From a virus, in the IMG/VR virus record IMGVR_UViG_3300030333_005140, positions 1-31,095 of that record: DNA of 31,095 nucleotides; one strand, 5' to 3'. The first letter of the stretch is position 1. Each line of letters opens with the position of its first letter. This document shows positions 6,758-19,198 of the stretch, piece after piece. Under the pieces are notes generated by a model. That model was not told where the DNA came from and did not search any database. It saw only the letters and a program-made list of their open reading frames with translations. The translations under genes were made by a program, and so were the position numbers.

Positions 6758-7079
6758 TCGGATTTTCCTCGAAACCACACTGTTGTAGTACGGTTTGCAG
6801 GTTGCCTGTCATATCCACTGCTGTCTTATCACTCATGCCGAGATAGTTCTTGGATAAGAATATCTGCATTGCGATCGCATTGTTCTCGATCGCTGATACC
6901 CACATTGCGCGTCTGAGCTTGAACTTCATCTCTTCGCGTCCAGCTTCATACTTCTCTTTGAAGTTATTGCGTATATAACTCTCACCAACCTCAAAGTATT
7001 TTCCGATCTCTGCGTACTTACACCCAAAGGATGCAAGCATCTTGACCTTATCTGGGTCTACTTTACTCTTCTTCTTCAT
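6675..7079 (-). CDS. terS: Terminase small subunit-like DNA-binding protein (134 aa)
   Basis: An N-terminal helix-turn-helix (KMLASFGCKYAEIGKYFEVG, about residues 12-35) is followed by helices with AIAMQIFLSKNYLGMSDK. That string is a recurrent signature of small terminase subunits in marine siphophages (NxxxxIFLxKNxLGxxDK). The protein recognises the packaging site and hands DNA to TerL. The ATG at 7079 is preferred over the TTG one codon earlier. It overlaps both neighbours, upstream by 17 bases and terL by at least 83. Confidence 0.8.
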   Translation of the reverse strand: MKKKSKVDPDKVKMLASFGCKYAEIGKYFEVGESYIRNNFKEKYEAGREEMKFKLRRAMWVSAIENNAIAMQIFLSKNYLGMSDKTAVDMTGNLQTVLQQCGFEENPIDKANSEQAKALEDLGIRPDSTAVGSS

Positions 7080-7401
7080 CAATATTAGCCTTTTCGATGA
7101 CAGCGTGTATCTTCTTCAGTGTTCTACGCCAGTATTCCTTTACGCTGGACTCGGTGATCTCCATCTCTACTGCGATGTCAACAAAGGTGTGGCCAAGCGT
7201 GCGCTGCTTGAATACACGCAGTTCCTGCGGAGACATGAGATCATAGAATGCATGTGCGCTTATTTGCAGGTGGCGCAGGTCTGGGTCTATCAGTCCGCTG
7301 CGGAATACTAGCATCTGTACGTGGTAGCGGTCTGCGCGGTCTATTGCATGTAGCCATTTATCTGTATTATCATCAGTTAGATTAGACCAAACCTCTTCCA
7401 T
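7063..7401 (-). CDS. HTH protein with sigma-region-4-like domain (112 aa)
   Basis: The C-terminal half (LMSPQELRVFKQRTLGHTFV, then DIAVEMEITESSVKEYWRR) reads as the four-helix arrangement of sigma-70 region 4 or RinA/ArpU-type phage late regulators, ending in an acidic DEEEE tail. The N-terminal half is helical and unrecognised. It is the first gene of the late operon, about 115 bases from the strong promoter at 7517-7544 and 20 bases from an AGTGTTGACAA site. A late transcription activator or a packaging accessory factor are both possible. Confidence 0.65.
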   Translation of the reverse strand: MEEVWSNLTDDNTDKWLHAIDRADRYHVQMLVFRSGLIDPDLRHLQISAHAFYDLMSPQELRVFKQRTLGHTFVDIAVEMEITESSVKEYWRRTLKKIHAVIEKANIDEEEE

Positions 7402-7420
7402 TACTTGAATTTACGCAGGG

Positions 7421-7431
7421 AGTGTTGACAA
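7421..7431 (+). promoter_or_regulatory. AGTGTTGACAA operator-like motif, copy 1
   Basis: This is a perfect copy of the 11-mer also found at 9656-9666 and, as an inverted pair, at 18047-18057 and 18071-18081. It lies between the late promoter and the start of the first late gene. It contains TTGACA on the + strand, but no acceptable -10 box follows, so I read it as a protein binding site rather than a promoter. Confidence 0.55.
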
Positions 7432-7502
7432 AAACGAAAGTAAAAATTCTAAGACGCGGTAAGTAGGCGAAATCGCGATCCGCCTTGGTATAACCGACTA
7501 AT

Positions 7503-7523
7503 TATACATAATGTATATTATAC
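7503..7523. promoter_or_regulatory. Overlapping palindromes at the late promoter
   Basis: TATACAT-A-ATGTATA (7503-7517) is a perfect 15-bp odd-centred palindrome. GTATA-T-TATAC (7513-7523) overlaps it and includes the leftward -10 box. The first shares its core CATAATG with the palindrome at 7618-7632. Position over the -10 and start region suggests repressor or activator binding. Confidence 0.5.
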
Positions 7524-7544
7524 GCAAGATTGAAAACGTGTCAC
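7517..7544 (-). promoter_or_regulatory. Leftward late promoter
   Basis: Read leftward, GTGACA (7544-7539, five of six matches to the -35 consensus) and a perfect TATAAT (7522-7517) are separated by 16 bases. A start near 7510 would transcribe the whole late operon (HTH, terS, terL, portal and onward). A second perfect TATAAT lies at 7506-7501 without a good -35. Confidence 0.6.
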
Positions 7545-7617
7545 ATTCTGTTATATTCAAATATTATTGAACTTAGCAGATGATGTAATTTCACCTGGTT
7601 AGATATGCGCGGGCTTT

Positions 7618-7632
7618 GTGTCATAATGACAC
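7618..7632. promoter_or_regulatory. 15-bp perfect palindrome, candidate operator
   Basis: GTGTCAT-A-ATGACAC is an odd-centred perfect palindrome in the 372-base divergent region between the late operon and the rightward module. Its core CATAATG equals that of the palindrome at 7503-7517, 115 bases away, so one dimeric regulator may bind both. Confidence 0.5.
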
Positions 7633-7690
7633 GGTGCGTTTGCTTTCTTTTTTAGTTTGGTTGGATACAAATATTTTATTTTGATAAGTA

Positions 7691-7719
7691 TTGACACGTA
7701 TATATATATCAACTAAATT
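7691..7719 (+). promoter_or_regulatory. Rightward promoter for the GP88-like module
   Basis: A perfect TTGACA (7691-7696) is followed after 17 bases by TAAATT (7714-7719, four of six matches), with an alternating TA tract between. It lies about 55 bases upstream of the rightward start codon at 7774 and is the best candidate for the only rightward transcription unit. Confidence 0.5.
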
Positions 7720-7773
7720 TAAACGCGTTTTGAGAGAGCGCATTAAACACTAAACAATAAAAGAGAGAGTACA

Positions 7774-8481
7774 ATGAAAGAAACCAAGTTATTAACATAT
7801 CCGCACGGATCAACCAAGACTAATAAATCAATGGCCTATGGATACGCGAATTTTATTATGTATCTTGCTCCGCATAAATTAAGCGGTCATAACGTTTGTC
7901 CAGGTGCAACCATAGGCTGTATTGAATCATGTTTAAACGAGAGCGGGCGCGGCAATTGGGTCGAAAAGAACGGTAAAATTAACCCAATACATCAAGCGCG
8001 TTTAAACCGTACATTACTTTATTTTAATGACCGCGCACGGTTTTTTGAACAACTAACAAAAGAGATCAAGAGCGGTATAACGTGGGCAAAAAAACGCGAT
8101 CTGATACCTGTTTTTAGGTTAAACGGTACATCTGATTTACGATGGGAAAACGACTGGCAGAATTTCAATATCATTAAATATTTTAGTGATATTCAATTTT
8201 ATGACTATACTAAATTATGGAACCGTAGAAATTTACCCGCGAATTATCATTTAACATTTAGCCGCGCGGAGTCAAACCAGGAGCAAACATTAAGCGCGAT
8301 TGTTAATGGTTTAAACATTAGCGCAGTGTTTCGTAGTGAGTTACCTAAACAATATCTTGGTTTAAATGTAATTAACGGTGATAAACATGATTTAAGATTT
8401 TTGGACCCGCTGCGATCATGTGTGGGCCTAATAGCTAAGGGCAAAGCAAAACATGATACAAGCGGGTTTGTTATTAACTAA
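7774..8481 (+). CDS. GP88-like cysteine-motif phage protein (235 aa)
   Basis: The motif NVCPGATIGCIESCLNESGR (Cys42, Cys49, Cys53), then HQARLNRT and FRLNGTSDLRW (about residues 114-124), matches a phage family related to gene product 88 domains (CP-x5-C-x3-CL, RT, RLNGTSDxxWE). Its biochemical role is, to my knowledge, not established; the spaced cysteines suggest a metal or Fe-S site. It heads the only rightward module, with an AGAGAGAG ribosome site. It uses CGC/CGT arginine and AGC serine codons far more than the following gene, hinting at separate acquisition. Confidence 0.75.
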   Translation: MKETKLLTYPHGSTKTNKSMAYGYANFIMYLAPHKLSGHNVCPGATIGCIESCLNESGRGNWVEKNGKINPIHQARLNRTLLYFNDRARFFEQLTKEIKSGITWAKKRDLIPVFRLNGTSDLRWENDWQNFNIIKYFSDIQFYDYTKLWNRRNLPANYHLTFSRAESNQEQTLSAIVNGLNISAVFRSELPKQYLGLNVINGDKHDLRFLDPLRSCVGLIAKGKAKHDTSGFVIN

Positions 8482-8498
8482 AAAGGAGAGAATACAAG

Positions 8499-8786
8499 AT
8501 GGAATTCAGAAAAAAAATGTTTGATAAAATAGTCAAAGCTATGAAAGACTTAAAGTTTAAAGCTACAATACACTTAAGTGATAAAGACAGAATAACAATT
8601 GGTCTAGGTAGAGATTATTTTAAAAAGAAAAATCCACACGGAATTGGTGCATTAGATGATGAGATAGATAACAGACTTAGAAAGATAGGTTTACAAAATG
8701 CAAACATTGAGATAGCTGCAGATTCATCAGAGTTTAACGATAAAAAATATACTAAAGCACAACACGATATTCGTGGTGGTGTGTAA
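8499..8786 (+). CDS. Unknown small protein of the rightward module (95 aa)
   Basis: The ATG follows AAAAGGAGAG with good spacing and lies 17 bases after the GP88-like stop, so both are co-transcribed. The protein is mixed alpha/beta and Lys/Asp-rich, beginning MEFRKKMFDKIVKAM, and has no cysteine, signal peptide or membrane segment. Arginine is almost always AGA, unlike the gene before it. I do not recognise it. Linkage to the GP88-like gene is the only clue to its job. Confidence 0.6.
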   Translation: MEFRKKMFDKIVKAMKDLKFKATIHLSDKDRITIGLGRDYFKKKNPHGIGALDDEIDNRLRKIGLQNANIEIAADSSEFNDKKYTKAQHDIRGGV

Positions 8787-8856
8787 GGAGAGAAGTATAT
8801 CCATACTCAGGGAATCACGTAACAATTAAAACATAATAAAAAAGATAGGTTAAATA

Positions 8857-8931
8857 ATGATAACTAAAATACTTGATACATATGTAAAAATATGCGCTTT
8901 AACCTGGGTCCTTTTATGGTTATTGAATTAA
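8857..8931 (+). CDS. Tiny hydrophobic ORF (24 aa), tentative
   Basis: ATG at 8857 opens MITKILDTYVKICALT followed by WVLLWLLN, a short peptide with a hydrophobic end. It overlaps the next tiny ORF. No strong ribosome site is seen. It could be a membrane micropeptide or chance; it is listed because it lies inside the transcript before the terminator. Confidence 0.25.
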   Translation: MITKILDTYVKICALTWVLLWLLN

Positions 8932-8984
8932 TCATATATGGTATATTAGCGCTCTTTTTTATGATGTTATTTGAAAGCGAATAA
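8916..8984 (+). CDS. Tiny membrane peptide ORF (22 aa), tentative
   Basis: ATG at 8916 opens MVIELIIYGILALFFMMLFE, which is one complete hydrophobic helix ending in acidic residues, 19 bases before the terminator stem. It overlaps the preceding tiny ORF in another frame. Such a helix could be a holin-like or membrane-anchoring micropeptide. Size makes it uncertain. Confidence 0.3.
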   Translation: MVIELIIYGILALFFMMLFESE

Positions 8985-9003
8985 AATCATAAATAAAACA
9001 ATT

Positions 9004-9029
9004 AAACCCGCTTAAACGCGGGTTTTTTT
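9004..9029 (+). terminator. Intrinsic terminator of the rightward module
   Basis: AAACCCGC (9004-9011) and GCGGGTTT (9018-9025) form a perfect 8-bp stem with a six-base loop, followed by four further T bases. It closes the rightward transcript just before the 19-bp repeats and so would shield them from transcription. Confidence 0.9.
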
Positions 9030-9039
9030 GTGTCCTGCT

Positions 9040-9115
9040 GCGCACATAAGCGTAACCTGCGCACATAAGCGTAACCTGCGCACATAAGCGTAACCTGCGC
9101 ACATAAGCGTAACCT
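9040..9115 (+). repeat. Four perfect 19-bp tandem repeats (iteron-like)
   Basis: The unit GCGCACATAAGCGTAACCT occurs four times without a mismatch at 9040, 9059, 9078 and 9097, and a fifth partial copy (GCATAA) follows. Each junction contains TGCGCA. The repeats are directly followed by an AT-rich tract and lie between convergent transcription ends, the classic setting of an origin with initiator-binding iterons. No spacer structure of a CRISPR is present. Confidence 0.9.
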
Positions 9116-9356
9116 GCATAATTGACATAGCAAAATAAACGTTTTTTTTGCTTTAATTCACTAGGTTTTTAAGTGTCTAAAATCGATACAATCATTTTGT
9201 TATTAGACATAATACGAATTATAATCAAAATATTTTGATCAGTGTTTTGTCATTTTTTGACCAAAATATGATCCGAAATATGAACAAATATGCTCTAATT
9301 ATATTATACTGGCAGGGTTTTTATATCTATTACGCAGGGTTTGGTTGCCAATTATA
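9116..9356. other. AT-rich non-coding tract, candidate replication origin
   Basis: This 241-base stretch has no convincing gene. It holds a perfect 16-bp palindrome ATCAAAATATTTTGAT (9224-9239), a related half-copy (ACCAAAATATGATC near 9260) and two of three copies of CAGGGTTT (9313, 9335; the third is at 9366). With the adjacent 19-bp repeats it resembles a DNA-unwinding element of an iteron origin. No initiator protein is recognised in the genome, so the function is inferred from layout. Confidence 0.45.
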
Positions 9357-9566
9357 TTATTGCTTCAGGGTTTTTAGCATTCGGTTTCGCCATGCCAATT
9401 TGTCACGCGATAGCATGCGCAACCAACACCGATCTAAATTGCAAACTCGCATGTCTTCATGCCACTCAAACACCAGCGCACAACGCTCACCATCACTAGC
9501 GATCTGCACGAATTCGCAAGACTTATCATCTTTTTTGGAAAGTGGGCATTTTTCAGCGAAAATCAC
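9357..9566 (-). CDS. Possible cysteine-rich small protein (69 aa), doubtful
   Basis: The frame starts at a GTG without a ribosome site and encodes a protein with normal composition, five cysteines and VFEWHEDMRVCNLDRCWLRM near the middle. It lies leftward of the primase-helicase, 150 bases beyond its stop, so it could be the last gene of the early operon. The reading frame opposite encodes a less protein-like 140-residue ORF. A real gene is plausible, but nothing identifies it. Confidence 0.35.
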   Translation of the reverse strand: MIFAEKCPLSKKDDKSCEFVQIASDGERCALVFEWHEDMRVCNLDRCWLRMLSRDKLAWRNRMLKTLKQ

Positions 9567-9581
9567 TAGAGGTGCTGAGAC

Positions 9582-9701
9582 AAAGAATTTGAAGAATTTG
9601 AAGAATATCTCTCTCTCTCTCCTCTATAAATATTTTTTCTCAAATTCTCTTTTTTAGTGTTGACAAGAATTTGAAATTCTTCATATTCTTCATATTCTTC
9701 G
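9582..9701. repeat. Mirrored 9-nt repeats flanking a CT tract
   Basis: On the left are two AAGAATTTG units and a variant (9582-9609); on the right are three ATTCTTCAT-like units (about 9676-9701). They are near reverse complements of each other. Between them are a CT-repeat (9609-9625), an A/T run and an AGTGTTGACAA site. The + strand right arm also contains a perfect odd-centred palindrome AAGAATTT-G-AAATTCTT (9665-9681). Confidence 0.6.
9656..9666 (+). promoter_or_regulatory. AGTGTTGACAA operator-like motif, copy 2
   Basis: This perfect copy of the 11-mer is joined to a 17-bp palindrome (9665-9681). It lies just past the end of the primase-helicase gene, in the non-coding side of the origin region. 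TTGACA with TATTCT 18 bases later could be a weak rightward promoter antisense to the primase gene. Confidence 0.5.
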
Positions 9702-9716
9702 TTTTCTTTGCACGCG

Positions 9717-11567
9717 CTAATCATCAATAATGTCAAGTTCTGTCTCCATTTTCCTATAAATTCCATGCGATATCTTACGCATAAGACCCTGATTTATCAT
9801 ACGATTCATCCAATTCGATACCGCAGCATTACTACTAACACCCACCACGGAATCCAACGCAGCAACAAATGCGTCACGACTAAAGTTATGCCCATCTGTC
9901 AGTATTGCCTGAAGCACCTTTTCTTCTAGTGACTCCTTTGGGTCCGTATACCAGAACATCTCATTCTTTGGCAGTGGCTTTAAATATTCAAAGTACAGAT
10001 GGCCACCATTCACATTGTGCAGTTTGATACCGACTGGCACGCCATGCAGGTCATTCTGACTGCGCACCTTCGTGATCTTCATTACCTTTAGACCAGGCAT
10101 ACGGCTACTACTTGCAAGCTGTACGATACCATCCAAATGATTCGTATATGCGCTACCACCTAGCATATGACTTACGTCCAATGGACTCGCTTCACCCATC
10201 TTTTTATGATGCGACACCATCACGATCGCAACTTTATGTTTGTTCTTCAGATTCACCATGGTACGCAATAGGTCCATCACATCATCGTTCTTGCTCACAT
10301 TCTTATCGGTACTCGTATACAGATTATCCACCACCAACACTTCGCATGGATCAAAGGTAAGATTATTATCGATCGCTTCCCACTTATCCGCGAACACATC
10401 CCGCTGCCCATCGGACAATATTCTAAAATTCTTTTCAAACCTGCCCGCTTCTACTGGATAATCGTTTAACACACGCCCTGCGGTTCGCTTTAAAAGCTGC
10501 GTGAAACTCTCGTCCTTTAACTCGAACTGCACATGCATCACCTTCCTGGCCTTTGGTACGCGAAAATTCAGGAACGGCACTCCCATACTCAAACAGGTCG
10601 CAAGTTGCAGACTGATCACCGATTTACCCACATTCGTACCACCTGCAATGCCAAGTATATCTTTTTTAAAGAACAGATCATCAATGATCGGTTCAGGCAT
10701 ATGCACAAAAGTACTAGTGAACTGCGCAGGACTAAAACTACGCATCCCGCCAAGGTCTTCTGGCTTATCACCAAACCGCACACAACATGCAAGCAGTTCT
10801 TCCATGGTATTTCCATCATTGAACCAGTCTGTTATATCGTAGCTGGAAGGTTTTTGGTTCCACTGCATGATATACAACTCCACCTGCGCACCAAATAGCC
10901 TTTTGGCGAGTTTTTTCGCACCTTCCTCGCCTTTTTCATCGTTATCGTACACTATGTATACCTTATTATATCTATCGTCCAAGGTTATTTTCGCAGGCAG
11001 CGCACCCGCACCTGACGTAAATGTCAGAGCGGATGCGCCATTGCAGTATGCGGTGACCACGTCCTTTTCACCTTCACAGATCACAAGGCTGGAGAGAGAT
11101 AGATGCGGAGTCTCGAACGACTTGCAACCTGCGTCACCGAACTGCGGACCTTTATGAAATTTTACATGATCGTCATTGATCTGGAACACCAACTGCGCAT
11201 TTTTCTTTTCATCACGCCTAACGCCCACAGGCATGTCCAGGCACTTCTCATTCCACGGCAACTCTAACTCCTCGACCGCTTTTTTCCAATGCGCAACAAA
11301 CGTTGCCCGCGCAGCAGCATAGCCACTTTTCTTTACCTCTTTTGACTCCACTTTGACCTTGGTATTGGTCAGTTTATATTCTACCCGCGGGGTTTTTACT
11401 GTCTTTTCTGAAAAATCCCAATGTGCATTGCATTTATGACAATAGGCATACTCACCATTGATCTGCACCGTGCCTTGCTTGCGTGATGTACCATCGTCAC
11501 ACTTAGGACACCAAGCACGCTTACCATTATGAGTTATCCGTGAGAAGACATCTGCTGCACTGCTCAA
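9717..11567 (-). CDS. Bifunctional primase-helicase (616 aa)
   Basis: The domain order is that of T7 gp4-like proteins. An N-terminal zinc ribbon has Cys20, Cys23, Cys43 and Cys46. A TOPRIM primase domain has ICEGEKD (about 163-169) and YDND (207-210). A RecA-type helicase/ATPase domain has Walker A GGTNVGKS (309-316) and Walker B EVLVVDN (about 409-415). A winged-helix-like C-terminus follows (about 560-610). It primes and probably unwinds DNA at the fork, with polymerase supplied by the host since none is encoded. The start is a TTG overlapping the previous stop (TTGA), with AGGAAG upstream. It is the last clear gene of the early operon. Confidence 0.9.
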   Translation of the reverse strand: MSSAADVFSRITHNGKRAWCPKCDDGTSRKQGTVQINGEYAYCHKCNAHWDFSEKTVKTPRVEYKLTNTKVKVESKEVKKSGYAAARATFVAHWKKAVEELELPWNEKCLDMPVGVRRDEKKNAQLVFQINDDHVKFHKGPQFGDAGCKSFETPHLSLSSLVICEGEKDVVTAYCNGASALTFTSGAGALPAKITLDDRYNKVYIVYDNDEKGEEGAKKLAKRLFGAQVELYIMQWNQKPSSYDITDWFNDGNTMEELLACCVRFGDKPEDLGGMRSFSPAQFTSTFVHMPEPIIDDLFFKKDILGIAGGTNVGKSVISLQLATCLSMGVPFLNFRVPKARKVMHVQFELKDESFTQLLKRTAGRVLNDYPVEAGRFEKNFRILSDGQRDVFADKWEAIDNNLTFDPCEVLVVDNLYTSTDKNVSKNDDVMDLLRTMVNLKNKHKVAIVMVSHHKKMGEASPLDVSHMLGGSAYTNHLDGIVQLASSSRMPGLKVMKITKVRSQNDLHGVPVGIKLHNVNGGHLYFEYLKPLPKNEMFWYTDPKESLEEKVLQAILTDGHNFSRDAFVAALDSVVGVSSNAAVSNWMNRMINQGLMRKISHGIYRKMETELDIIDD

Positions 11568-12220
11568 AACTTCCTACGTAGGTCATACAACGCACAGCAA
11601 TGCCTGAACACCTGCGCACCTGCATCGAGTTTTTCTCTATCGATCACATGTTTATGGAACTTACCATCTTCTTTGCCAAAGCGCATTATGATGCCATATT
11701 TTACATCTGCTCTTGGCTGCGCAGCTTCGTACATCATGGTGTATGCACCTAACTGCACCATCATTTCAGGGTATGGTCCACCTTTAGATGTCTTCCAATC
11801 CACTAGTACCAGATCACCATCTATCTTTCCGATACAATCTACCGTACCACCTACGCGTAATTCCTCATTGACCAAGGCGAATTCACTGGCGAGTGCTTTG
11901 AACTTTGCTTTATCATACCAGTTCTTAAAACCAAAGAATGCTTTTAATGCCTGCTCTTCCTGGTTAGGCGTAAAATCCCGCGTATCTACGTCAAATCCTT
12001 GAAGATAACCTTGTATCAATAAATGTGTCAATGTACCCACGTCACCTGCTTCTCGCATGACCGCATCTGCATCCTCACCCTGCGCGGTAATACGCTTTGC
12101 CCATGCGATCAGTGTGTTCTTGTTCCATCCCAACTGATTGTTGATAATGGTGGTCACACTTGCTGCGCGTCTGCCATCCTTTAGTACATAGTTTTGTCCA
12201 TGTAACTTGGTTTTACTCAT
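11564..12220 (-). CDS. Cas4/RecB-like PD-(D/E)XK exonuclease (218 aa)
   Basis: The central motif GGTVDCIGKIDGDLVLVDWK (Asp near 128, then D-x-K in VDWKTSK near 140) and the following QLGAYTMMYEA helix (about 158) are the RecB/Cas4 nuclease signature (D, DxK, QxxxY). An upstream GTLTHLLIQGYL supplies the usual His-bearing helix. Likely role: 5'-3' exonuclease in phage recombination or host DNA degradation. It overlaps the primase-helicase by four bases. No four-cysteine Fe-S cluster like that of true Cas4 is evident. Confidence 0.85.
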   Translation of the reverse strand: MSKTKLHGQNYVLKDGRRAASVTTIINNQLGWNKNTLIAWAKRITAQGEDADAVMREAGDVGTLTHLLIQGYLQGFDVDTRDFTPNQEEQALKAFFGFKNWYDKAKFKALASEFALVNEELRVGGTVDCIGKIDGDLVLVDWKTSKGGPYPEMMVQLGAYTMMYEAAQPRADVKYGIIMRFGKEDGKFHKHVIDREKLDAGAQVFRHCCALYDLRRKF

Positions 12221-12344
12221 CTATTTTCTCCTTTAATTCAAATATGATCAGGAATGTCACTGCAATGGTCAATGCCCAAAAGAACATTCCTAATCCTAAC
12301 ACTAATACATTTGCTACCCATTCTGCTATATCGAACATGATCAT
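12213..12344 (-). CDS. Small membrane protein (43 aa)
   Basis: ATG at 12344 overlaps the stop of the 56-aa gene (ATGA), and its TAA overlaps the start of the nuclease gene. One hydrophobic helix covers about residues 10-34, followed by FELKEKIDE. The tight overlaps on both sides support a real gene. Function is unknown; with its neighbour it forms a pair of co-translated single-span proteins inside the DNA operon. Confidence 0.6.
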   Translation of the reverse strand: MIMFDIAEWVANVLVLGLGMFFWALTIAVTFLIIFELKEKIDE

Positions 12345-12511
12345 GATATCACCTCATCATATATTTTCATTAACACTTCTTCTATCTCTTTTATCTTCTT
12401 TGCTAAATACCATCGTTGTAAATAATGGTATGCAATGATAGATACAATGACTATGGTCACAATGAACACATCAAATGCATTCTCTTGTAATGACTCTAAC
12501 CAATATCTCAT
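12341..12511 (-). CDS. Small membrane protein (56 aa)
   Basis: ATG at 12511 overlaps the stop of the methyltransferase gene (ATGA). A short polar N-terminus leads into one transmembrane helix (VFIVTIVIVSIIAYHYL, about residues 15-31), followed by a charged helical tail rich in Lys and Glu. It may sit in the inner membrane with a cytoplasmic coiled tail. I do not recognise the family. An early membrane role such as superinfection exclusion is possible but unsupported. Confidence 0.6.
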   Translation of the reverse strand: MRYWLESLQENAFDVFIVTIVIVSIIAYHYLQRWYLAKKIKEIEEVLMKIYDEVIS

Positions 12512-13776
12512 ATTATCTCCTTTTGTTTTATGATCGTGGCAACTGCTTGGACCACATCCACGGTCACTGCGTTGCCTGCCTGCTTATATCTTTGTGTGTC
12601 GCTCATCTCAACCACCTTACCATCCATCTCACCATACTTATTATGGTCATCGCTGAAACCTTGTAAACGATTACATTCACGAGGTGTGAGTCTGCGAATG
12701 TTTGTATTTATTTTCACCATACTATCTTTCATAGCACTATTCAATGCATTGGATACATTATCATCTCGTTCTTCTATCTTGGCTGGTTGACCAGCATAGG
12801 TTCTTGTTCTATGAGCAACGCTTTTTGCTTGTATCGTATACTGCTGCATACCAGTATCCAATGTCTGTGCTTCACCTTTACCTACTCTACCTCGCCTGGT
12901 CTTACTATTCGGCACAGAAAGATTGATGGAATCACCAACCTCTGCTTCTGCGTAGCCTTTCTTCGTGGCTTCTGGAATCTTATACAACCCAGTTTTCGCT
13001 CTCATACCGCCACCATCGGTTAAGGTTCTTGAGATTCCATTGGCATCATACACTCGTGTGGCTTCGCTGTCTTTACCTATTGTGCCGATTTGTTTAAGAC
13101 CTTTAACTACATAGGTTTCACCACAAGCATGAACACCTTTTCTATAATCAGCAGTTATTGTTGTACTAATTTTACTGACCTTCCCCGATCCTCTGCTCTC
13201 TCCAAGTATCGTAGAGCTTTCTCCGATAGGAAATACTTGTGGTCCACTTCGGTTTCCAATATATCCGACAATGTATATCCGCTCTCTATTTTGGGGTAGC
13301 CACCAGCGAGTATTAAGTAGTTGGAACTCAATGGTATACCCAAGGTCACTAAGAATTCTGTAGATGACAGCAAATGTGCGTCCATTGTCGTGACTAAGTA
13401 GGCCTTTAACATTTTCGAGAACCAGACATCGGATCGGTCTTTTGTTTTCGACATAATGAGTGAGAAGCCGTGCGATTTCAAAAAAGAGAGTACCTCTGGT
13501 GTCATCAAACCCAAGTCGCTTTCCAGCCACGCTGAATGCTTGGCACGGAAATCCTGCACAAAGGATGTCAATGTTATCTGGTGTATCTCTCCCTGGTCGA
13601 ATAGTTGTAATGTCACCTAACTCCTCACTTTCTTTATAATTATATCTATACACCGCGCTGGCATATTTGTCTATCTCGCTAAAACCTACCCAGTCAAATT
13701 CATAACCTGCGCGCTTAAAACCTTCGTGGAATCCACCGATACCACTAAATAGATCAAGCATTTTCACACCCGACAT
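12508..13776 (-). CDS. C5 cytosine-specific DNA methyltransferase (422 aa)
   Basis: The Dcm/M.HhaI-type motifs are in order: I DLFSGIGGF (about residue 8), IV catalytic PCQAFS (Cys near 78), VI ENVKG (about 121), VIII QNRERIYIVG (about 162) and X QAGNAV near residue 400. The protein is long, with an extended target-recognition region (about 190-350). It transfers methyl from SAM to C5 of cytosine, probably hiding phage DNA from restriction. No cognate restriction enzyme is obvious next to it. I chose ATG at 13776; an in-frame GTG at 13791 and ATG at 13761 are alternatives. Confidence 0.92.
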   Translation of the reverse strand: MSGVKMLDLFSGIGGFHEGFKRAGYEFDWVGFSEIDKYASAVYRYNYKESEELGDITTIRPGRDTPDNIDILCAGFPCQAFSVAGKRLGFDDTRGTLFFEIARLLTHYVENKRPIRCLVLENVKGLLSHDNGRTFAVIYRILSDLGYTIEFQLLNTRWWLPQNRERIYIVGYIGNRSGPQVFPIGESSTILGESRGSGKVSKISTTITADYRKGVHACGETYVVKGLKQIGTIGKDSEATRVYDANGISRTLTDGGGMRAKTGLYKIPEATKKGYAEAEVGDSINLSVPNSKTRRGRVGKGEAQTLDTGMQQYTIQAKSVAHRTRTYAGQPAKIEERDDNVSNALNSAMKDSMVKINTNIRRLTPRECNRLQGFSDDHNKYGEMDGKVVEMSDTQRYKQAGNAVTVDVVQAVATIIKQKEII

Positions 13777-13809
13777 GGTAGCGTCCACCAAGCCAACAGA
13801 TTCAAATGT

Positions 13810-14064
13810 TTATCCATTTTTACCTTTCGCACTTTTGTCGGATGCGCATTCTTTACATATCTTTCTTTGCTTACCATAGGTAACAAAATTCTCATAATAT
13901 TCAATTTTCCTATTCCACCGCGCTTTTGTCTTTTCCCAACAACGCATACAAATATTACAATAAAAAATGCAGCGATCTGCAAGTTCCGCATCTAGATTCT
14001 TTCGCTCATTATGTTTACGAATAATATGTTGTTTCCTTCCACCAAACACTGTGTAATTAGCCAT
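13810..14064 (-). CDS. Small Cys-rich protein, possible zinc finger (84 aa)
   Basis: The protein is basic. CIFYCNICMRC (about residues 32-42) and KICKECASD (about 68-76) give paired CxxC motifs as in zinc-ribbon or degenerate HNH proteins, but the His-Asn-His residues of an HNH nuclease are not clear. Its start overlaps the end of the 71-aa gene upstream by 8 bases, and it precedes the methyltransferase. A nucleic-acid-binding accessory role is a guess. Confidence 0.6.
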   Translation of the reverse strand: MANYTVFGGRKQHIIRKHNERKNLDAELADRCIFYCNICMRCWEKTKARWNRKIEYYENFVTYGKQRKICKECASDKSAKGKNG

Positions 14065-14272
14065 GAATGCTCCTTTTTAGTTCCTCGGTCATATCTTTCT
14101 CTTTCTCATTATCATCGACATACACACCAAACAAGACCTCTGCGCTCCTGCGCCTTTGCATCAGTTCACTAAGGTCACAGATCAGGTCGCTCCAGGTTGG
14201 TCTTTGAATATAGGTGTCTTCCATCTCACCATGGTCATTATCATATATGATACCACCTGCGTAATGTTTCAT
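14057..14272 (-). CDS. Unknown small acidic protein (71 aa)
   Basis: It begins MKHYAGGIIYDNDHGEMEDT and continues with helical segments carrying Asp, Glu and Arg (LICDLSELMQRRRSAEVLFG). There is no signal peptide, cysteine or membrane segment. It overlaps the next gene by 8 bases and lies 21 bases from the previous one, consistent with operon membership. I do not recognise it. Confidence 0.55.
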   Translation of the reverse strand: MKHYAGGIIYDNDHGEMEDTYIQRPTWSDLICDLSELMQRRRSAEVLFGVYVDDNEKEKDMTEELKRSIHG

Positions 14273-14293
14273 TAACTAAATCTAAAAAATCCT

Positions 14294-14893
14294 TTATCTA
14301 TTTTTAACATTACAAAATTCAGTTGCTTTTTGTTTTTTACATTCAAAAGCAATTCTCCAAATTCGTTTAATTTTTTTCACATCTTTTAATGAAAGTAAAA
14401 ACCAATATCTCAAAGCCATGTCAGTTAAAACACCTGTTATGTCTCCTATCGTTGGTCTATGTGAACGCCAGAAGTTGATAAAGTGTTGTTCCGTTATACC
14501 ATTTAGACAGTTTACACCTACTATTGGAAAAGTAAAAATCAACAATGACTTATCGCGCATTAAATCAAAAACTATTGGAAAAAAATGGTCTGGATAACCA
14601 TAGCTATCTATATCTATCACATCCCACTTTTTCTTATCTGCGCGCATTTGATAGATATAATCAAAACTACTTCCAAATTTTTCCTTTGTCATAGACGTAA
14701 CAGAACCATATTGTTTATAATAAGCAGATAAATTGCCTTGTCCACCAAATACTTCTAATATCTCTTTATTTTTAAAAAATGATTTAAATAAATCTAACTG
14801 TTGTATTTTTTCTTTTGGGTGATGATATTCATCATCATTATTTTTTTGCTTTTGTCTGATCAATATATGACTTTTTTTTGTATGTCCTGTCAT
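14294..14893 (-). CDS. Class I SAM methyltransferase-like protein (199 aa)
   Basis: ILEVFGGQGNLSAYY (about residues 45-59) has the glycine-rich SAM-binding motif I, and DVIDIDSYGYPDHFF (91-105) is the acidic catalytic-edge strand. This recalls the D-x-D-P/S-Y/F-G segment of Trm1-type (N2,N2-dimethylguanosine) methyltransferases and related nucleic-acid enzymes. The target (DNA, tRNA or nucleotide) cannot be told. The N-terminus is unusually basic and Gln-rich. Its start touches the end of a PD-(D/E)XK nuclease gene. AT content is higher than in neighbouring genes, hinting at recent transfer. Confidence 0.6.
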   Translation of the reverse strand: MTGHTKKSHILIRQKQKNNDDEYHHPKEKIQQLDLFKSFFKNKEILEVFGGQGNLSAYYKQYGSVTSMTKEKFGSSFDYIYQMRADKKKWDVIDIDSYGYPDHFFPIVFDLMRDKSLLIFTFPIVGVNCLNGITEQHFINFWRSHRPTIGDITGVLTDMALRYWFLLSLKDVKKIKRIWRIAFECKKQKATEFCNVKNR

Positions 14894-15279
14894 CAGCTAA
14901 ACTCAGGAAACCGATCATATGAATAGAACCATTTCCTGCCTTTTGTTTGATTGTTCTTGCCAGTTGTGATCGCCAAACTCAATGCATGCGAATTATCGTA
15001 TGGATAATATGCAATTATATCTTTTGGCAAATAGTATACTGCTACCACATCAATTCGATTCCTATTCTTATATTTGGTTAGATTTACCTCGATCGCAGTA
15101 CCTCTTTTTAATTGCATCACTGTTTTGACCTGCACCCGCTTCATTGCGCCACTATTCAACTCCACCACCAGATCTACTTGATCAACATCTACAACTGGCG
15201 CATAAATATTATATCCTTGCCGTATCAAATCTTTTTGCACCGCAAGTTCACCCAATGCGCCTTTGTTCAAGCTATGCAA
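14893..15279 (-). CDS. PD-(D/E)XK nuclease of the I-Ssp6803I-like type (128 aa)
   Basis: KGALGELAVQKDLIRQGYNI (Glu11), QVDLVVE (Asp36) and KRVQVKT (Gln50, Lys52) give the E, D, QxK active site seen in the PD-(D/E)XK homing endonuclease I-Ssp6803I and its relatives. A longer open frame extends upstream to 15615 but only as a shadow of the previous nuclease gene. I place the start at TTG 15279 (GGCGGA upstream) or TTG 15270, right at that gene's stop. Possible roles: Holliday-junction or mismatch-type cleavage, or homing endonuclease acting in trans on the intron site in the capsid gene. Confidence 0.7.
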   Translation of the reverse strand: MHSLNKGALGELAVQKDLIRQGYNIYAPVVDVDQVDLVVELNSGAMKRVQVKTVMQLKRGTAIEVNLTKYKNRNRIDVVAVYYLPKDIIAYYPYDNSHALSLAITTGKNNQTKGRKWFYSYDRFPEFS

Positions 15280-15739
15280 ACAGATCCGCCATAGAACTAA
15301 GTTGGCTTTGCTGCATCGTGTACTTAGGACCATACCCCATGTCTTGCAAGTTAACATCTTGTAGTAATTGCGTTGATGTTGCTCCGCCAAGGATAGTAAA
15401 GGTTGGAAACGATACATGCACCAAAATGAATATATCGCAGTCGTTTGGATTCTTCTTTGTTTTCGCTTGTAAGTATCCAGGGTTATAGGAAGTGGTTTTA
15501 ACATCGACCTTTTTACCTTTAACTTTAAGATCGTATCCACTATAGTGCGGTCCAATACTAAGGTCGGGATACCTGTTGAAGTATTTACATACTGCGATCT
15601 CACCACCTGCACCATTTATGTCAGGTTCTATCTTGCGTGGTCCGTGAGAGATCACTCCATTGGTCTGGTTCTGTAGCATCCTCGCTGCTCCCGTCTGCAC
15701 TGCTATCTGCGCTTCCAGGTGGTTCAGTTTTATTTGCAT
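15272..15739 (-). CDS. PD-(D/E)XK nuclease-like protein, restriction type (155 aa)
   Basis: NGAGGEIAVCKYF (Glu47), SGYDLKV (Asp70) and KKVDVKT (Asp79, Lys81) form a textbook PD-(D/E)XK core, distinct from the QxK type of its neighbour. The start at 15739 is preferred because GAGGAA lies seven bases upstream; an earlier start at 15868 would be only a shadow of the preceding gene. It still overlaps the disordered tail of that gene by 119 bases. Likely a DNA endonuclease; whether it serves recombination, host DNA breakdown or restriction with the nearby methyltransferases is open. Confidence 0.7.
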   Translation of the reverse strand: MQIKLNHLEAQIAVQTGAARMLQNQTNGVISHGPRKIEPDINGAGGEIAVCKYFNRYPDLSIGPHYSGYDLKVKGKKVDVKTTSYNPGYLQAKTKKNPNDCDIFILVHVSFPTFTILGGATSTQLLQDVNLQDMGYGPKYTMQQSQLSSMADLFA

Positions 15740-16049
15740 GTGGTTGTTCCTCGTGATCAAGTGCGGCATATAATACCATATAGTTCGCCACATCAAGACA
15801 TCTTTGATATGTGGTCTCATCACTATAGGTCTTGCCAGTTTTAGCATCGTTGCATAGTGCATCGACATGTTTTAAGATATAAACCATCATTGACTGCTTT
15901 GCCGTATTCCCAAGTCGTTCCGCAACGTGCTTGAAATTGTAGAATTTATCTTCATTGCTAATGGTATATTCTATTGATTTACTGTCGCTGATATGCGATG
16001 CGGTTTCAAAGAAATTCTCTCTAAATCTATTAAAGTCATCATACTTCAT
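15621..16049 (-). CDS. Nmad1/DUF1599-like protein (142 aa)
   Basis: EYTISNEDKFYNFKHVAERL, then QSMMVYILKHVDALCND, and DVANYMVLYAAL match a common phage family (EYxxxEDRxxNFxxxAxxLG, KHxxSI, DxxNYxxLxxAL) known as DUF1599 or nucleotide-modification-associated domain 1, an all-helical MazG-like fold. It may bind or process nucleotides in base-modification pathways. The C-terminal 45 residues are a Ser/Asp/Glu-rich disordered tail whose DNA doubles as the start of the next gene. It begins directly after the stop of the 44-aa ORF (TAAATG). Confidence 0.7.
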   Translation of the reverse strand: MKYDDFNRFRENFFETASHISDSKSIEYTISNEDKFYNFKHVAERLGNTAKQSMMVYILKHVDALCNDAKTGKTYSDETTYQRCLDVANYMVLYAALDHEEQPHANKTEPPGSADSSADGSSEDATEPDQWSDLSRTTQDRT

Positions 16050-16184
16050 TTATCTACTCCCAAGCATTCCACCATTAGACCAACCTTTACATATTCTCTT
16101 TCTGCGACCAGGATGCTTTAGCTCTGGTAGGCCTTTACCAGTAGCGTCTAATCTTCTTTTATTTTTCTTACGCGTCAGCTTCAC
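16050..16184 (-). CDS. Small basic protein with GTG start (44 aa)
   Basis: A GTG at 16184 overlaps the stop of the previous gene (GTGA), is preceded by AGGAGAGGAAG, and the frame ends in TAA abutting the next ATG. The product, starting (M)KLTRKKNKRRL and including HPGRRKRICKGW, is strongly basic. The precise packing in the operon makes it credible. Nucleic-acid binding is likely from charge alone. Confidence 0.55.
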   Translation of the reverse strand: MKLTRKKNKRRLDATGKGLPELKHPGRRKRICKGWSNGGMLGSR

Positions 16185-16471
16185 TCTTCCTCTCCTTTAT
16201 CCCAATCAACCATTTCATTTAAAACATCTAAATTTATTTTTAACGAAGCGATCTGCGCATCCATCTCAACGATAGCGTTTGTGATATTACCATGCATTTT
16301 TATGCGCTCCTTGACTATTTTTTCTGAGTACTTTGGCCAATTATATTCCTCGTCGATCACTTCAATAGAAGCACGTTTTGCTTCAACAACATCTGTATGT
16401 TCGCTACAACATGAACATATTGGTGTTTCATATTCTTTTAATTGCGCACCGCAACAACTACTCACCTGCAT
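16181..16471 (-). CDS. Zinc-ribbon protein with helical tail (96 aa)
   Basis: The start QVSSCCGAQLKEY and ICSCCSEH give a CC-x-C-x-C type zinc ribbon (about residues 6-24) like those of many small phage proteins. It is followed by a helical, acidic C-terminus (IVEMDAQIASLKINLDVLNE) that could form a coiled coil. It is co-transcribed with the genes on both sides and overlaps each. Function unknown. Confidence 0.65.
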   Translation of the reverse strand: MQVSSCCGAQLKEYETPICSCCSEHTDVVEAKRASIEVIDEEYNWPKYSEKIVKERIKMHGNITNAIVEMDAQIASLKINLDVLNEMVDWDKGEEE

Positions 16472-16667
16472 TTTTCTCTCCTTTTTTATCTATTGCTCTT
16501 AATATCTCATCGCAAGTGTCCATTGCTACTTGTATGCGAAAATTTTCGTTTAATACGATTTTACTGGTTTCTGTAACTGCATGTTCTTTTAAAACCTTAT
16601 CGATACATTTACTTATTAGCGAAACCATCGCTGCTCTTGGATTTCTCTTTCTCATTGGATATGGCAT
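16458..16667 (-). CDS. Unknown helical protein (69 aa)
   Basis: The protein begins MPYPMRKRNPRAAMVSLISK and continues as a mixed-charge helix, ending KKGEKNAGE. A second ATG four codons in is an alternative start. It overlaps the zinc-ribbon gene by 14 bases and has GGAGAG upstream. No motif is recognised. Confidence 0.55.
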   Translation of the reverse strand: MPYPMRKRNPRAAMVSLISKCIDKVLKEHAVTETSKIVLNENFRIQVAMDTCDEILRAIDKKGEKNAGE

Positions 16668-16676
16668 ACTCTCTCC

Positions 16677-17054
16677 TTATAGTTTAGCGGAGCCATGACT
16701 ATCACGATCATTAGACACGCCATTTTCTGGTTTATGGGTTTCTAAGGCTCCGCTATTAAATAAATCTTTCATCCACTCATGCTTGACTATCCATAGCCAA
16801 GGCTTTCTATCCTGGCGCACCATAACTACATCCGCATTCTTAAATGATAAAAAATCTGCCAGTTTCTTTCTTCTTTTTACTTGTACACGTATTGTCAGGT
16901 CACCTTTGGTTGCTTTCACATCAATGTCGCTCTTTTCTCCAAAACTACGACCATCACTTCCCCAACTACGCTCGGCTGTGAAGCCGAGGTCGCGTAATAA
17001 CTCCACGACCTCGACCTCACCTTTATAGCCTTTTCGGGATGCGGAAGAAGGCAT
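16677..17054 (-). CDS. Holliday-junction-resolvase-like PD-(D/E)XK nuclease (125 aa)
   Basis: RKGYKGEVEVVELLRDLGFT (Glu13), KSDIDVKA (Asp43/Asp45) and RVQVKRRK (Gln58, Lys60) follow the archaeal Hjc-type resolvase pattern, in both order and length (about 120 residues). It would resolve recombination or packaging branch points. It shares its ATG region with the stop of the SSB-like gene (ATGA-type overlap). The QxK variant instead of ExK, as also seen in the nuclease at 14893-15279, makes the catalytic metal site slightly atypical. Confidence 0.75.
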   Translation of the reverse strand: MPSSASRKGYKGEVEVVELLRDLGFTAERSWGSDGRSFGEKSDIDVKATKGDLTIRVQVKRRKKLADFLSFKNADVVMVRQDRKPWLWIVKHEWMKDLFNSGALETHKPENGVSNDRDSHGSAKL

Positions 17055-17548
17055 CAGAAAGGTAAGTCTTCTTCCTCTGCGGGCGTACTCTCGAAGACCT
17101 TATCTGGTTCATAGTCCTTCTTAAATTCTGCCAACGCTTCTTTAACATCATCGGTCAAAGGTGACTTCGGACACGGTGTGGTAGTATAAGTAGTATCCAT
17201 TCCATCACCACTACGCGTCACAATGACATCATATTCTGATAGATTTCCCCATTCAGAATTGCGATCCAGCTCAGTCAATTGCTTCTGCACCGTAGATTGT
17301 GTCACATCTAGTATCTTGACACCGTGGCCATCCCATACTGGTACTTGCCAAAAATGCTTTGGCTTCTCACCAGATGGTGCTTCTGCTGCGGTTTTGATAC
17401 GCACTGGCACTTTATCATCCTGCCAATATTGGTAACCCATTATCGGTGTATCTAATATTCGGAATCGATTTTCACCTTTGGCAAATTTCATAAAGCTACT
17501 CTCGCCAGTACTAGGTACATCATAGGTAGGCTCTAATAGTCCACTCAT
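17054..17548 (-). CDS. Single-stranded DNA-binding protein, phage type (164 aa)
   Basis: The protein starts with a segment FMKFAKGENRFRILDTPIMG, typical of phage SSB-like proteins. A beta-rich middle with aromatic residues (FWQVPVWDGHGVKIL) follows, and it ends in the acidic tail TPAEEEDLPF. That tail parallels the conserved acidic C-terminal tip (DDDIPF) of bacterial SSB, which recruits partner enzymes. It coats ssDNA during replication and recombination. Position upstream of the resolvase and the primase-helicase fits. No OB-fold comparison could be run. Confidence 0.75.
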   Translation of the reverse strand: MSGLLEPTYDVPSTGESSFMKFAKGENRFRILDTPIMGYQYWQDDKVPVRIKTAAEAPSGEKPKHFWQVPVWDGHGVKILDVTQSTVQKQLTELDRNSEWGNLSEYDVIVTRSGDGMDTTYTTTPCPKSPLTDDVKEALAEFKKDYEPDKVFESTPAEEEDLPF

Positions 17549-17550
17549 CG

Positions 17551-17769
17551 TTACTCCTTTATTATGTTATATGTATATCCACGGCGATCGATCAAGGCAA
17601 GTATCTTTTTATAAGTAGCATCATCTGTATTAGCCTTCACACCAATGTCTGCTCTATAGACTTTTCGCGCCCTTGGAATGTATGTTTGGGATTCGCCCAA
17701 AAGTTTGCGCACATCTTGTGCAAATTTGAATCTCTCTTCTTTCTCAGGTATGTGGATGGTGAGGAGCAT
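17551..17769 (-). CDS. Unknown small protein (72 aa) with a hairpin leader
   Basis: It begins MLLTIHIPEKEERFKFAQDV and is basic, alpha/beta and without cysteines. Its stop lies two bases before the SSB start, so both are co-transcribed. Directly upstream of the ATG is a long inverted repeat (17770-17840), and there is no free Shine-Dalgarno, so translation may be controlled by RNA folding. I do not recognise the family. Confidence 0.6.
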   Translation of the reverse strand: MLLTIHIPEKEERFKFAQDVRKLLGESQTYIPRARKVYRADIGVKANTDDATYKKILALIDRRGYTYNIIKE

Positions 17770-17840
17770 GGGCAGTGCCTAGTGACGCAAAAGAGAGAGA
17801 GAGTGTAGTTGTGGCAACGTCATTTCAGGCAGCACTGCCC
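17770..17840 (-). repeat. Inverted repeat abutting a start codon, possible translation control
   Basis: GGGCAGTGC (17770-17778) and GCACTGCCC (17832-17840) are perfect complements. Inside them CGTCA and TGACG, and GTTG/CAAC, extend the fold imperfectly. In the leftward transcript the 3' arm ends exactly at the ATG of the 72-aa gene and would hide the AGG that could serve as ribosome site. It is not followed by a T-run, so it is no terminator. Confidence 0.5.
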
Positions 17841-17856
17841 CAGTATAGTACAAAAA

Positions 17857-18045
17857 TTAAAAAGGCCATTCAATAAACTCCATCTTGATTCCCAAGACTC
17901 GTGCAATATTGACCTTATGTTCGTAACGAAACTTACGTTTGCCGCGCATCATTAAAGAAAGCATACTTTTGTCTAAAGCGATCTGCCTAGCTAATTGGTT
18001 TTGTGAAAAACCACACTCTCTCATATGTTGATGTAAAGGCTTCAT
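17857..18045 (-). CDS. Cro/CI-like repressor, XRE family (62 aa)
   Basis: A helix-turn-helix spans about residues 13-33 (FSQNQLARQIALDKSMLSLM), followed by MRGKRKFRYEHKVNIARVLG, the usual XRE layout. At 62 residues it is Cro-sized, with no dimerisation/cleavage domain. The frame extends to a TTG at 18057, but ATG at 18045 is the better start. Its 5' region carries the inverted pair of AGTGTTGACAA sites, so autoregulation is likely. It is the first gene of the early operon. Confidence 0.8.
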   Translation of the reverse strand: MKPLHQHMRECGFSQNQLARQIALDKSMLSLMMRGKRKFRYEHKVNIARVLGIKMEFIEWPF

Positions 18046-18046
18046 A

Positions 18047-18081
18047 AGTGTTGACAAAGTTTAATGCGCCTTGTCAACACT
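18047..18081. promoter_or_regulatory. Paired AGTGTTGACAA operators at the repressor gene
   Basis: AGTGTTGACAA (18047-18057) and its exact reverse complement TTGTCAACACT (18071-18081) are separated by 13 bases. The left arm ends two bases from the repressor ATG. An AT-rich stretch at 18082-18100 (TATAAA, TAATAC on the leftward strand) could supply the -10 box. The pair sits where a repressor would block its own transcription. Confidence 0.65.
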
Positions 18082-18100
18082 AAGCAAGTATTATTTTATA

Positions 18101-19198
18101 TTAGAACTCTTCTTCGATGCGCATTGCTACATTGTATACGTCAGGTGCAACCTGTTGCATATCCAAACTATTTTGGGCAAATCTAGCAAAAATATGTTCA
18201 CTCTCCGCATTACCTGCGGAGCTGTCCTTATCAATAGAAAAAATAAAAGGTAGGTGTTGTCCGTTGGTTAAGTTCCAGATATCTTCCACAACCGCATCAT
18301 CATCAAAGTCTTTTATATGGTACTCGTCTGGCATTACATCGGTTGATGCTAAATAACTAAAGTTCATATCATAAACTAATCGGCCACCATATAAATGTCT
18401 ATTCGATGATGAAGTAGTAAATGGAGATTTAGATGTAGACGATCCTGTTCTGCCGTGACTTGTCATATTAGAAAATCTTTGACCACCTATAGATTGCTGA
18501 AGTGTTACCTGGTCAAACATAATAGACCTTTTTACATTTAAATCTGGACTATGGGGCATATCATAATACTCACCTACCATTATTTGACCTACTGTAAAAT
18601 CTGTGCTACCCCATGTTCCATCTGTTGTGCCTGTAGATGTTTGATCAATAGTTCCTTCAAACTGAATCCCCCAGTATCTTAGGTCTTGCTCATCAAAAAT
18701 TATAATTGTGCTTCCGTCTGCATCTGGTTTTATGGCCACGCTTTTATTATCACTAGCAGAAACTATCGAGTCAGCATTCACTATCTGCGTGACATTCTGA
18801 CTGCCCCAACTAACATCCGATGTATTGGCATTACCAGCATCAACCGCAGTAACACGACTAGATGCACTTCCAGCACTTATTCTTATTTTGCCATTTGAAC
18901 TATTCAAATTATGATTTAAGATAGCAACAAATGATTGCTTCGGGTTCGCACTTTGCATATCTAGAGTTACTAATACTTGGCTATCTGTATCCCCAGATGT
19001 GTCAAATGAAACAAGATTCAAAGGTCTGCCATCAAATAACTCTGCCTCTGAACCTGTTTGAATTCCTCGAAATGCAGATGCTCCCGATCCGCCTGTTGCA
19101 GTTACATCAAATTCTCCATTCTGTGCCACACCTCTACTTAATAGATATTGTATATAATCCACATAAAATCTTGGTGTGCGTATATTCATGTTTGCCAT
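18101..19198 (-). CDS. Tail tip or fibre-associated structural protein (365 aa)
   Basis: This protein is Ser/Thr/Gly/Asp-rich and beta-structured, beginning MANMNIRTPRFYVDYIQYLL. It contains a jelly-roll-like stretch (YWGIQFEGTIDQTSTG, about residue 174) of the kind seen in receptor-binding or baseplate proteins. It is the last gene of the late operon and its start touches the end of the 725-aa tail protein. Its place after tape measure and hub protein suggests a distal tail or host-contact role. The family is not firmly recognised. Confidence 0.65.
   Translation of the reverse strand: MANMNIRTPRFYVDYIQYLLSRGVAQNGEFDVTATGGSGASAFRGIQTGSEAELFDGRPLNLVSFDTSGDTDSQVLVTLDMQSANPKQSFVAILNHNLNSSNGKIRISAGSASSRVTAVDAGNANTSDVSWGSQNVTQIVNADSIVSASDNKSVAIKPDADGSTIIIFDEQDLRYWGIQFEGTIDQTSTGTTDGTWGSTDFTVGQIMVGEYYDMPHSPDLNVKRSIMFDQVTLQQSIGGQRFSNMTSHGRTGSSTSKSPFTTSSSNRHLYGGRLVYDMNFSYLASTDVMPDEYHIKDFDDDAVVEDIWNLTNGQHLPFIFSIDKDSSAGNAESEHIFARFAQNSLDMQQVAPDVYNVAMRIEEEF

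Follow-up and report, generated by a model that had tools for sequence, protein, structure and literature searches.

The window analysed here is the whole 31,095-base record of an uncultured virus. A sequence-only reading had placed a candidate iteron-type origin at 9004-9373. The features of this interval and of the DNA adjoining it are the following.

9004-9025, no strand assigned: GC-rich hairpin with a T-run, probable terminator of the plus-strand unit
9038-9117, plus strand: four 19-bp repeats, real and lineage-specific
9118-9298, no strand assigned: AT-rich tract with a 16-bp palindrome (9224-9239) and 11-12-bp A-rich repeats, possible unwinding element
9299-9371, minus strand: three ACCCTG-N8-ATATAA boxes, from a pattern scan
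9357-9566, minus strand: conserved Cys-rich gene of 69 aa with a GTG start
9583-9609, plus strand: iteron array B, facing array A
9610-9664: AT-rich spacer
9641-9649, minus strand: single direct 9-mer within the spacer
9665-9673, plus strand: single inverted 9-mer
9673-9699, minus strand: iteron array A, three direct 9-mers
9717-11567, minus strand: primase-helicase gene of 616 aa (phrog_239, Toprim, AAA_25), proposed initiator
9747-9929, minus strand: C-terminal winged helix of the primase-helicase (residues ~547-607), from structure models

The neighbourhood is a replication module and encodes an SSB-like protein, a RusA-like resolvase, a PD-(D/E)XK exonuclease and a methyltransferase. Among the scanned window proteins no DNA polymerase family was found beyond primase/polymerase profiles that match the primase-helicase itself, and a host polymerase is therefore assumed. 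No known RNA or tRNA was found in the window. The main plus-strand gene of the window belongs to the GP88 family (7774-8481, Pfam PF17338). On the minus strand, the gene of a small protein that weakly matches a phage family of sigma factors (7063-7401, phrog_1190, E 2e-5) adjoins the terminase genes. The minus-strand ORFs 1305-1907 and 2114-2404, about 200 nt apart, seem to be two pieces of one capsid-type protein, possibly through an assembly frameshift or an interrupted gene. Five consecutive short, very basic Lys/Arg-rich ORFs at 27295-28394 (minus strand) perhaps encode DNA-condensing or virion proteins.

Repeats and boxes of the intergenic zone

The hairpin with its T-run is present at 9004-9025 as claimed, and analogous hairpins are seen by inspection in aligned relatives. 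Taken alone it does not stand above chance, with seven terminator-type hairpins found against 7.2 expected from shuffles of 7300-18300. Next to it, four perfect tandem 19-mers CTGCGCACATAAGCGTAAC are confirmed at 9038-9113, in an array that runs to 9117 (TRF score 160). A fifth copy within three mismatches was found nowhere in the 31,095-base record. The sequence-only reading had taken these repeats for origin iterons to which an unknown early protein may bind, and the four perfect copies do adjoin the AT-rich tract. They are, however, not kept in close relatives. Of the 65 relatives whose sequence extends 750 nt or more beyond the 3' end of the primase gene, one (L005) has the unit within four mismatches, in a single copy. 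In this same relative, whose primase is 99% identical, the place is taken by degenerate 19-bp copies and a second terminator. Other tandem repeats occupy the position elsewhere, with units of 17 bp in L014, 18 bp in L038 and 8 bp in L025. The last consists of about 21 tandem copies of GTGAGCAG beside the terminator, about 484-655 nt into the stretch downstream of the primase. Given their absence and degeneration in relatives, the 19-bp repeats were rejected as iterons, and we regard this version of the origin as hardly credible.

The description of the AT-rich tract holds, with 77% AT over 9118-9310 and the perfect 16-bp palindrome ATCAAAATATTTTGAT at 9224-9239. Likewise, the boxes CAGGGTTT are found at 9313, 9335 and 9366 and are the sole three in the window, where 0.63 are expected; three were reached by 3 of 100 shuffles. 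In the form ACCCTG-N8-ATATAA, which is the same set of boxes on the other strand, this gapped pattern occurs three times in the window, all within 9299-9371, against 0 expected. The boxes are found where the Cys-rich gene ends and beyond it, next to the A-rich 11-bp repeats; the third CAGGGTTT box is inside the 3' end of this gene. A loose form of the pattern is present at least twice in 41 of 70 loci, so that the boxes represent a second, older feature of the region. Many relatives have kept both the boxes and the A-rich tract, which might serve the origin in an accessory capacity, for instance in unwinding, or act as promoters. GC skew, suggested as a check of the origin, follows the gene strand in the window and gives no origin position.

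The zone had been called gene-poor, and it is not gene-free. The 69-aa gene on its minus strand (9566-9357) is found in nearly all relatives, and its coding nature is supported by the changes by codon position (544/193/1507 in 15 close sequences) and by the codon differences in 105 pairs, of which 1370 are synonymous and 480 non-synonymous. The protein follows the pattern CPLS...DKxCxF...C...RCW...RDKLAWRNRM and gave no Pfam, PHROG or phage-record match.

Facing 9-bp arrays downstream of the primase-helicase gene

Directly after the stop of the primase-helicase gene, and outside the flagged interval, lies a conserved element at 9583-9708. A repeat search identified two sets of three 9-mers that face each other, array A with AAGAATATG, AAGAATATG and AAGAATTTC, and array B with AAGAATTTG, AAGAATTTG and AAGAATATC. 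The spacer at 9610-9664 is 71% AT, carries the conserved stretch TTATAGAGGAGAGAGAGAG on the minus strand and contains the single direct 9-mer GAGAATTTG. A further single 9-mer, AAGAATTTG, is inverted and, together with the final 9-mer of array A, makes up a palindrome, an arrangement also present in aligned relatives. The 9-mer type in the window is AAGAATWTG, with the general form NNGAATWTG. This pair of facing arrays is the only one in the window, and none was obtained in 300 first-order Markov simulations of the window. A second iteron site was considered and rejected; elsewhere in the window there are just two single 9-mer matches.

By DNA, the search for cultured relatives returned none. 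At the protein level, the primase gave one weak match in phage records (21% identity over 39%), while the terminase matched 1523 phage records, all below 60% identity, and the capsid-region ORF and the ORF in the portal position matched none of these records. Pelagibacter phage HTVC111P, which was considered because of its terminase, has no primase-helicase annotated. A search for a host or prophage yielded 76 pattern matches in genome contigs, none of which is a relative. No description of this phage family was found in the open-access literature, which as the sole literature covered gives weak evidence of absence.

The comparison is with related loci in three sets. Relatives of the first set (42 fetched with the window's primase-helicase as query, 41-99% identical) have facing arrays directly 3' of the primase gene in all 41 testable cases; L026 was left out of this count, its sequence stopping at the primase. 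In the second set of 72 loci, 20 were examined, namely the new contigs with a complete primase end, and all 20 contain the facing arrays. From the 84 loci of the third set, the distant L165-L197 and partial rows were set aside; the 14 new contigs with a primase end were examined and 13 show facing arrays, by inspection where one arm has just two copies. Over all sets, 74 of the 75 relatives have such facing arrays after the primase gene. The one relative that departs from this, L160, is 35% identical and shows a degenerate arrangement. The distance from array start to array start is mostly about 90 nt (range 67-119). The 9-mer itself varies between phages, with AAGAATATG, CGGAATATG, GAGAATATG, TAGAATATG, AGGAATAAG, GAGACTTTG, TAAAAAAAG and others observed.

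Tandem short repeats thus adjoin a replication-protein gene, and an AT-rich candidate unwinding region is adjacent, as expected for iteron origins. There is good support for an iteron-type origin in this intergenic stretch. The earlier proposal was right about the neighbourhood and the kind of element and wrong about the repeats, the iterons being the 9-bp arrays within 9583-9708, beyond the interval it had delimited.

Two further observations concern the same DNA. One clade (L041, L042, L043) has an extra direct 9-mer array 3' of the primase, before the usual facing pair. A 66-aa open frame on the minus strand (9566-9766) starts in the primase gene and crosses both iteron arrays. The TAG that closes it shares bases with the GTG start of the Cys-rich gene, so that the two could be translationally coupled; by inspection the frame is apparently broken in several relatives.

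The two arms are 87% complementary, and the 141-nt strand folds better than 200 of 200 shuffles (z -3.2, DNA parameters). The arms could thus be read as an mRNA 3' end or as an extruded stem-loop of the kind proposed for pRN1, which requires a stem-loop of similar size (PMC4234260, as far as the cited part describes it), and the 9-mer periodicity would be incidental. A plain stem, however, needs neither tandem 9-mers nor extra single copies in the loop, and it needs no coupling to the winged-helix residues 580-582 and 601 described below. Moreover, the arms differ at variable bases in several phages (CGGAAT against AAGAAT in L006, CAGAAT against AAGAAT in L012). We consider a pure hairpin function very unlikely. 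By analogy with what was argued for pRN1, the hairpin may add to a protein-binding function of the arrays.

The winged helix of the primase-helicase and the iteron bases

The primase-helicase has a Zn-type N-terminus (by inspection), a TOPRIM domain at about 160-240, a RecA-type helicase domain at 290-458 and the winged helix at about 547-607. Pfam assigns the helicase to AAA_25, which is RecA-type, with 62.9 bits against a cut-off of 27, and finds no SF3 helicase family in the protein. The TOPRIM domain matches T7 gp4 chains (E 7e-7). The last 77 residues model as a winged helix with a mean pLDDT of 80.9, and the same elements are present in the full-length model. The recognition helix is predicted at 580-592 (SNAAVSNW motif at 579-586) and the wing hairpin at 596-606, with His601 at its tip. 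Fold matches are largely winged helices, among them the C-terminal domain of the archaeal MCM helicase (VIA Z 7.6, the highest) and the DNA-bound winged helix of DpnI. The scores are modest, with a best Foldseek E-value of 0.02 and VIA Z values that, below 8, are not decisive. MCM_C and HTH models match distant family members weakly. The origin-binding domain of P4, whose structure we take to be 1KA8, is not among the matches listed in the fold searches, which excludes nothing.

Each variable primase column was compared with the iteron bases across 50 distinct loci, with correction for divergence over residues 1-540. This set derives from 62 aligned primases (window included) by removal of four partial sequences (L032, L038, L039, L046) and eight near-duplicates. 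For residue 601 at the wing tip and base 8 we observe 37 loci with His and T, 12 with Arg and A and one with Arg and T. The pairing holds in 49 of 50 loci, and in the exception, L040, the register is ambiguous. For base 8, column 601 ranks first of 505 variable columns with a partial correlation of 0.90 (next 0.55), and it also leads when only pairs below 12% divergence are considered (0.96, next 0.58). Base 1 is best tracked by residue 581, which again ranks first of 505 and occupies position four of the xSNy motif, where the recognition helix begins. Among pairs below 12% divergence, residue 580 ranks first of 224 for base 5 (0.98, followed by 565 with 0.91), and residues 577 and 582 lead for base 2. 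When all pairs are taken, some of the top-ranking columns for base 2 and base 9 are outside the winged-helix domain. For bases 3 and 6 the highest ranks go to columns such as 322 or 411; these bases differ only between deep clades, and hence no statement is possible on them. Within the domain, L019 and L016 differ at just four positions (597, 599, 601 and 616), and the main iterons of the two, taken as array consensus, are GAGAATAAG and GAGAATATG.

Shared ancestry was tested on a tree built without the winged helix. On this tree base 8 changes at least seven times and residue 601 at least eight times. Four independent pairs are available on well-supported branches (seven on all branches), of which on average 3.9 of 4 are concordant and none is opposite. 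The sign test gives p 0.125, four pairs being too few to reach 0.05. For G at base 1 against Asn/Lys at 581, seven pairs are available and 6.4 are concordant (p 0.016-0.03), and for G at base 2 against Thr/Gln at 581 five of seven are concordant (p 0.06). Base 5 has two independent pairs, one of them concordant; for bases 5 and 2, independent changes are few or the association is non-significant.

Two recognition rules were applied to new loci. The rule for bases 1 and 2 was set down before the second locus set was looked at. It predicts base 2 correctly in 17 of 18 covered loci, nearly all of which have A (the evenly split L097 is counted as right), and base 1 in 7 of 13, the six misses forming one clade. 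Its success is moderate and the rule partly right. The wing rule, by which His at 601 goes with T at base 8 and Arg with A, was set down before the third set. Scored by eye, it is right in 8 of 9 scorable loci, all nine with Arg at 601. Base 8 is clearly A in L125, L133-L137 and L199 and mixed with A in the majority in L158, and the miss, L127, has G. Four loci with Lys at 601 are not covered by the rule, and L160 (His) is unscorable. Five of the nine loci belong to one clade, so that the outcome is support, not proof.

In the loci compared, the 9-mer is seen to vary together with the primase-helicase's C-terminal winged helix, and from these sequence data the winged helix very likely pairs with the 9-mers. 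With the iterons covarying with the DNA-reading tip, the primase-helicase very likely recognises the start site itself. The idea of an unknown early binding protein, put forward when no initiator was recognised, gives way to a candidate encoded directly beside the arrays, the winged helix of the primase-helicase, whose residues covary with the 9-mers. The Cys-rich protein is tied to the candidate origin. As a reader of the iterons it was rejected, since its core is identical in phages with different iterons, for example in L071, L075, L077, L079 and L081, and it therefore does not set specificity. This control left out L028, L097, L106 and L124, in which the small-ORF picks were in wrong frames.

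Proposed initiation at the arrays and comparison with known initiators

Covariation shows that the protein is paired with the 9-mers and not what the pairing is for, and the 9-mers might just as well form an operator to which the primase-helicase binds. The winged helix would then control the Cys-rich gene or its own operon, with the origin elsewhere. Array B closely precedes the Cys-rich gene's start, and both arrays lie within the same transcription direction, which would fit such a role. The anatomy of facing sets with an AT-rich spacer 3' of a replicative primase-helicase, however, resembles that of SaPI and pRN1 origins as far as the cited parts of the sources describe them (PMC7581432, PMC4234260), and a consensus scan predicted no minus-strand promoter inside the array. 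We therefore consider the operator unlikely. On the evidence of sequence and its conservation, the facing-array element is probably the replication origin of this uncultured marine phage. The origin would occupy the ~130 bp immediately 3' of the primase-helicase gene, whose product probably acts as its own initiator.

For initiation at this origin, each 9-bp iteron would be bound by a C-terminal winged helix. Reading of base 8 would fall to the wing tip (601), and that of the core and of the variable 5' bases to the recognition helix (577-583). With two three-iteron sets facing each other across an AT-rich spacer, two primase-helicase rings could sit head to head. These rings may open the spacer, and a hairpin or the A-rich tract downstream might assist. 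Priming and unwinding would then proceed both ways and give two forks and bidirectional replication, with a polymerase supplied by the host.

Several known systems are of this self-initiating kind. The helicase of P4 alpha is SF3, and its winged helix is C-terminal. P4 alpha joins a TOPRIM-type primase and a helicase in one chain, and the winged helix binds origin repeats (described in part of PMC4234260). Primase, helicase and winged helix are in one chain here too, but the helicase is AAA_25/RecA-type, and immediately 3' of the gene lie units of 9 bp, grouped into two facing sets. SaPI Rep and SCCmec Cch2 are described as self-loading helicases whose C-terminal domain reads short iterons directly downstream of the own gene, apparently as two hexamers (PMC7581432, cited part). 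Compared by Pfam domains only, they differ in their helicase families (DUF927, D5/Primase_Cterm), and the SaPIs in having AEP primases. For pRN1 ORF904 and phage BIP-1, the cited part of PMC4234260 describes a C-terminal winged helix and an origin of ~100 bp just 3' of the gene, with a 21-nt stem and a 58-nt loop whose structure is kept while the sequence diverges. These proteins differ by an archaeo-eukaryotic primase and an SF3 helicase, and no iteron structure is recognised in pRN1/BIP-1. An origin directly 3' of the helicase gene is common to SaPIs, SCCmec and pRN1, in the parts of the sources cited (PMC4234260, PMC7581432), and to the phages studied here. What is shared with the self-initiating kind is a helicase with a C-terminal winged helix, modelled in our case, and repeats directly downstream. 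Lacking an SF3 or D5-type helicase domain, the protein is not filed with the families of P4 alpha, SaPI Rep or pRN1.

The T7-gp4-related TOPRIM domain and the RecA-type helicase place the protein closer to T7 gp4 and Twinkle. To our knowledge, T7 gp4 is without an origin-reading winged helix. Loading of T7 gp4 on single-stranded DNA is described as taking place via the primase domain, and the same route is given for Twinkle (PMC3401641, cited part). A TOPRIM/RecA primase-helicase with an origin-reading winged helix was not found in the open-access literature covered, which is weak evidence of absence. RepA of the Vibrio PLEs is an initiator of another kind and not a primase-helicase. In the PLEs, the DNA-binding domain of the initiator covaries with the origin (PMC8263062, cited part); there whole modules covary, whereas here it is single residues and bases. 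What appears to be new is the combination, a RecA-type primase-helicase that probably reads its own origin, together with the residue-by-base resolution. In its full form, the proposal is that a T7-gp4/Twinkle-type (RecA-fold) primase-helicase is its own origin-recognition protein. Its fused winged helix would set two rings face to face on inverted 9-bp arrays, through a family-wide, fast-changing code of single wing and helix residues to single iteron bases. Superinfecting relatives, or parasites that target the origin, may be what drives the change. We consider this full form about as likely as not.

From sequence analysis, an origin together with its reader can be proposed for a group of uncultured phages. 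The logic of a helicase that reads its own origin would be extended from SF3/D5 helicases to a T7-gp4-like RecA-type primase-helicase. The comparison with pRN1 suggests that the stems of pRN1-type stem-loop origins may hide protein-binding units, and it would be worthwhile to re-examine them for tandem binding units. The ~50 distinct natural protein-DNA pairs represent a ready test of winged-helix recognition, in which a swap of His and Arg at 601 should swap T and A at base 8.
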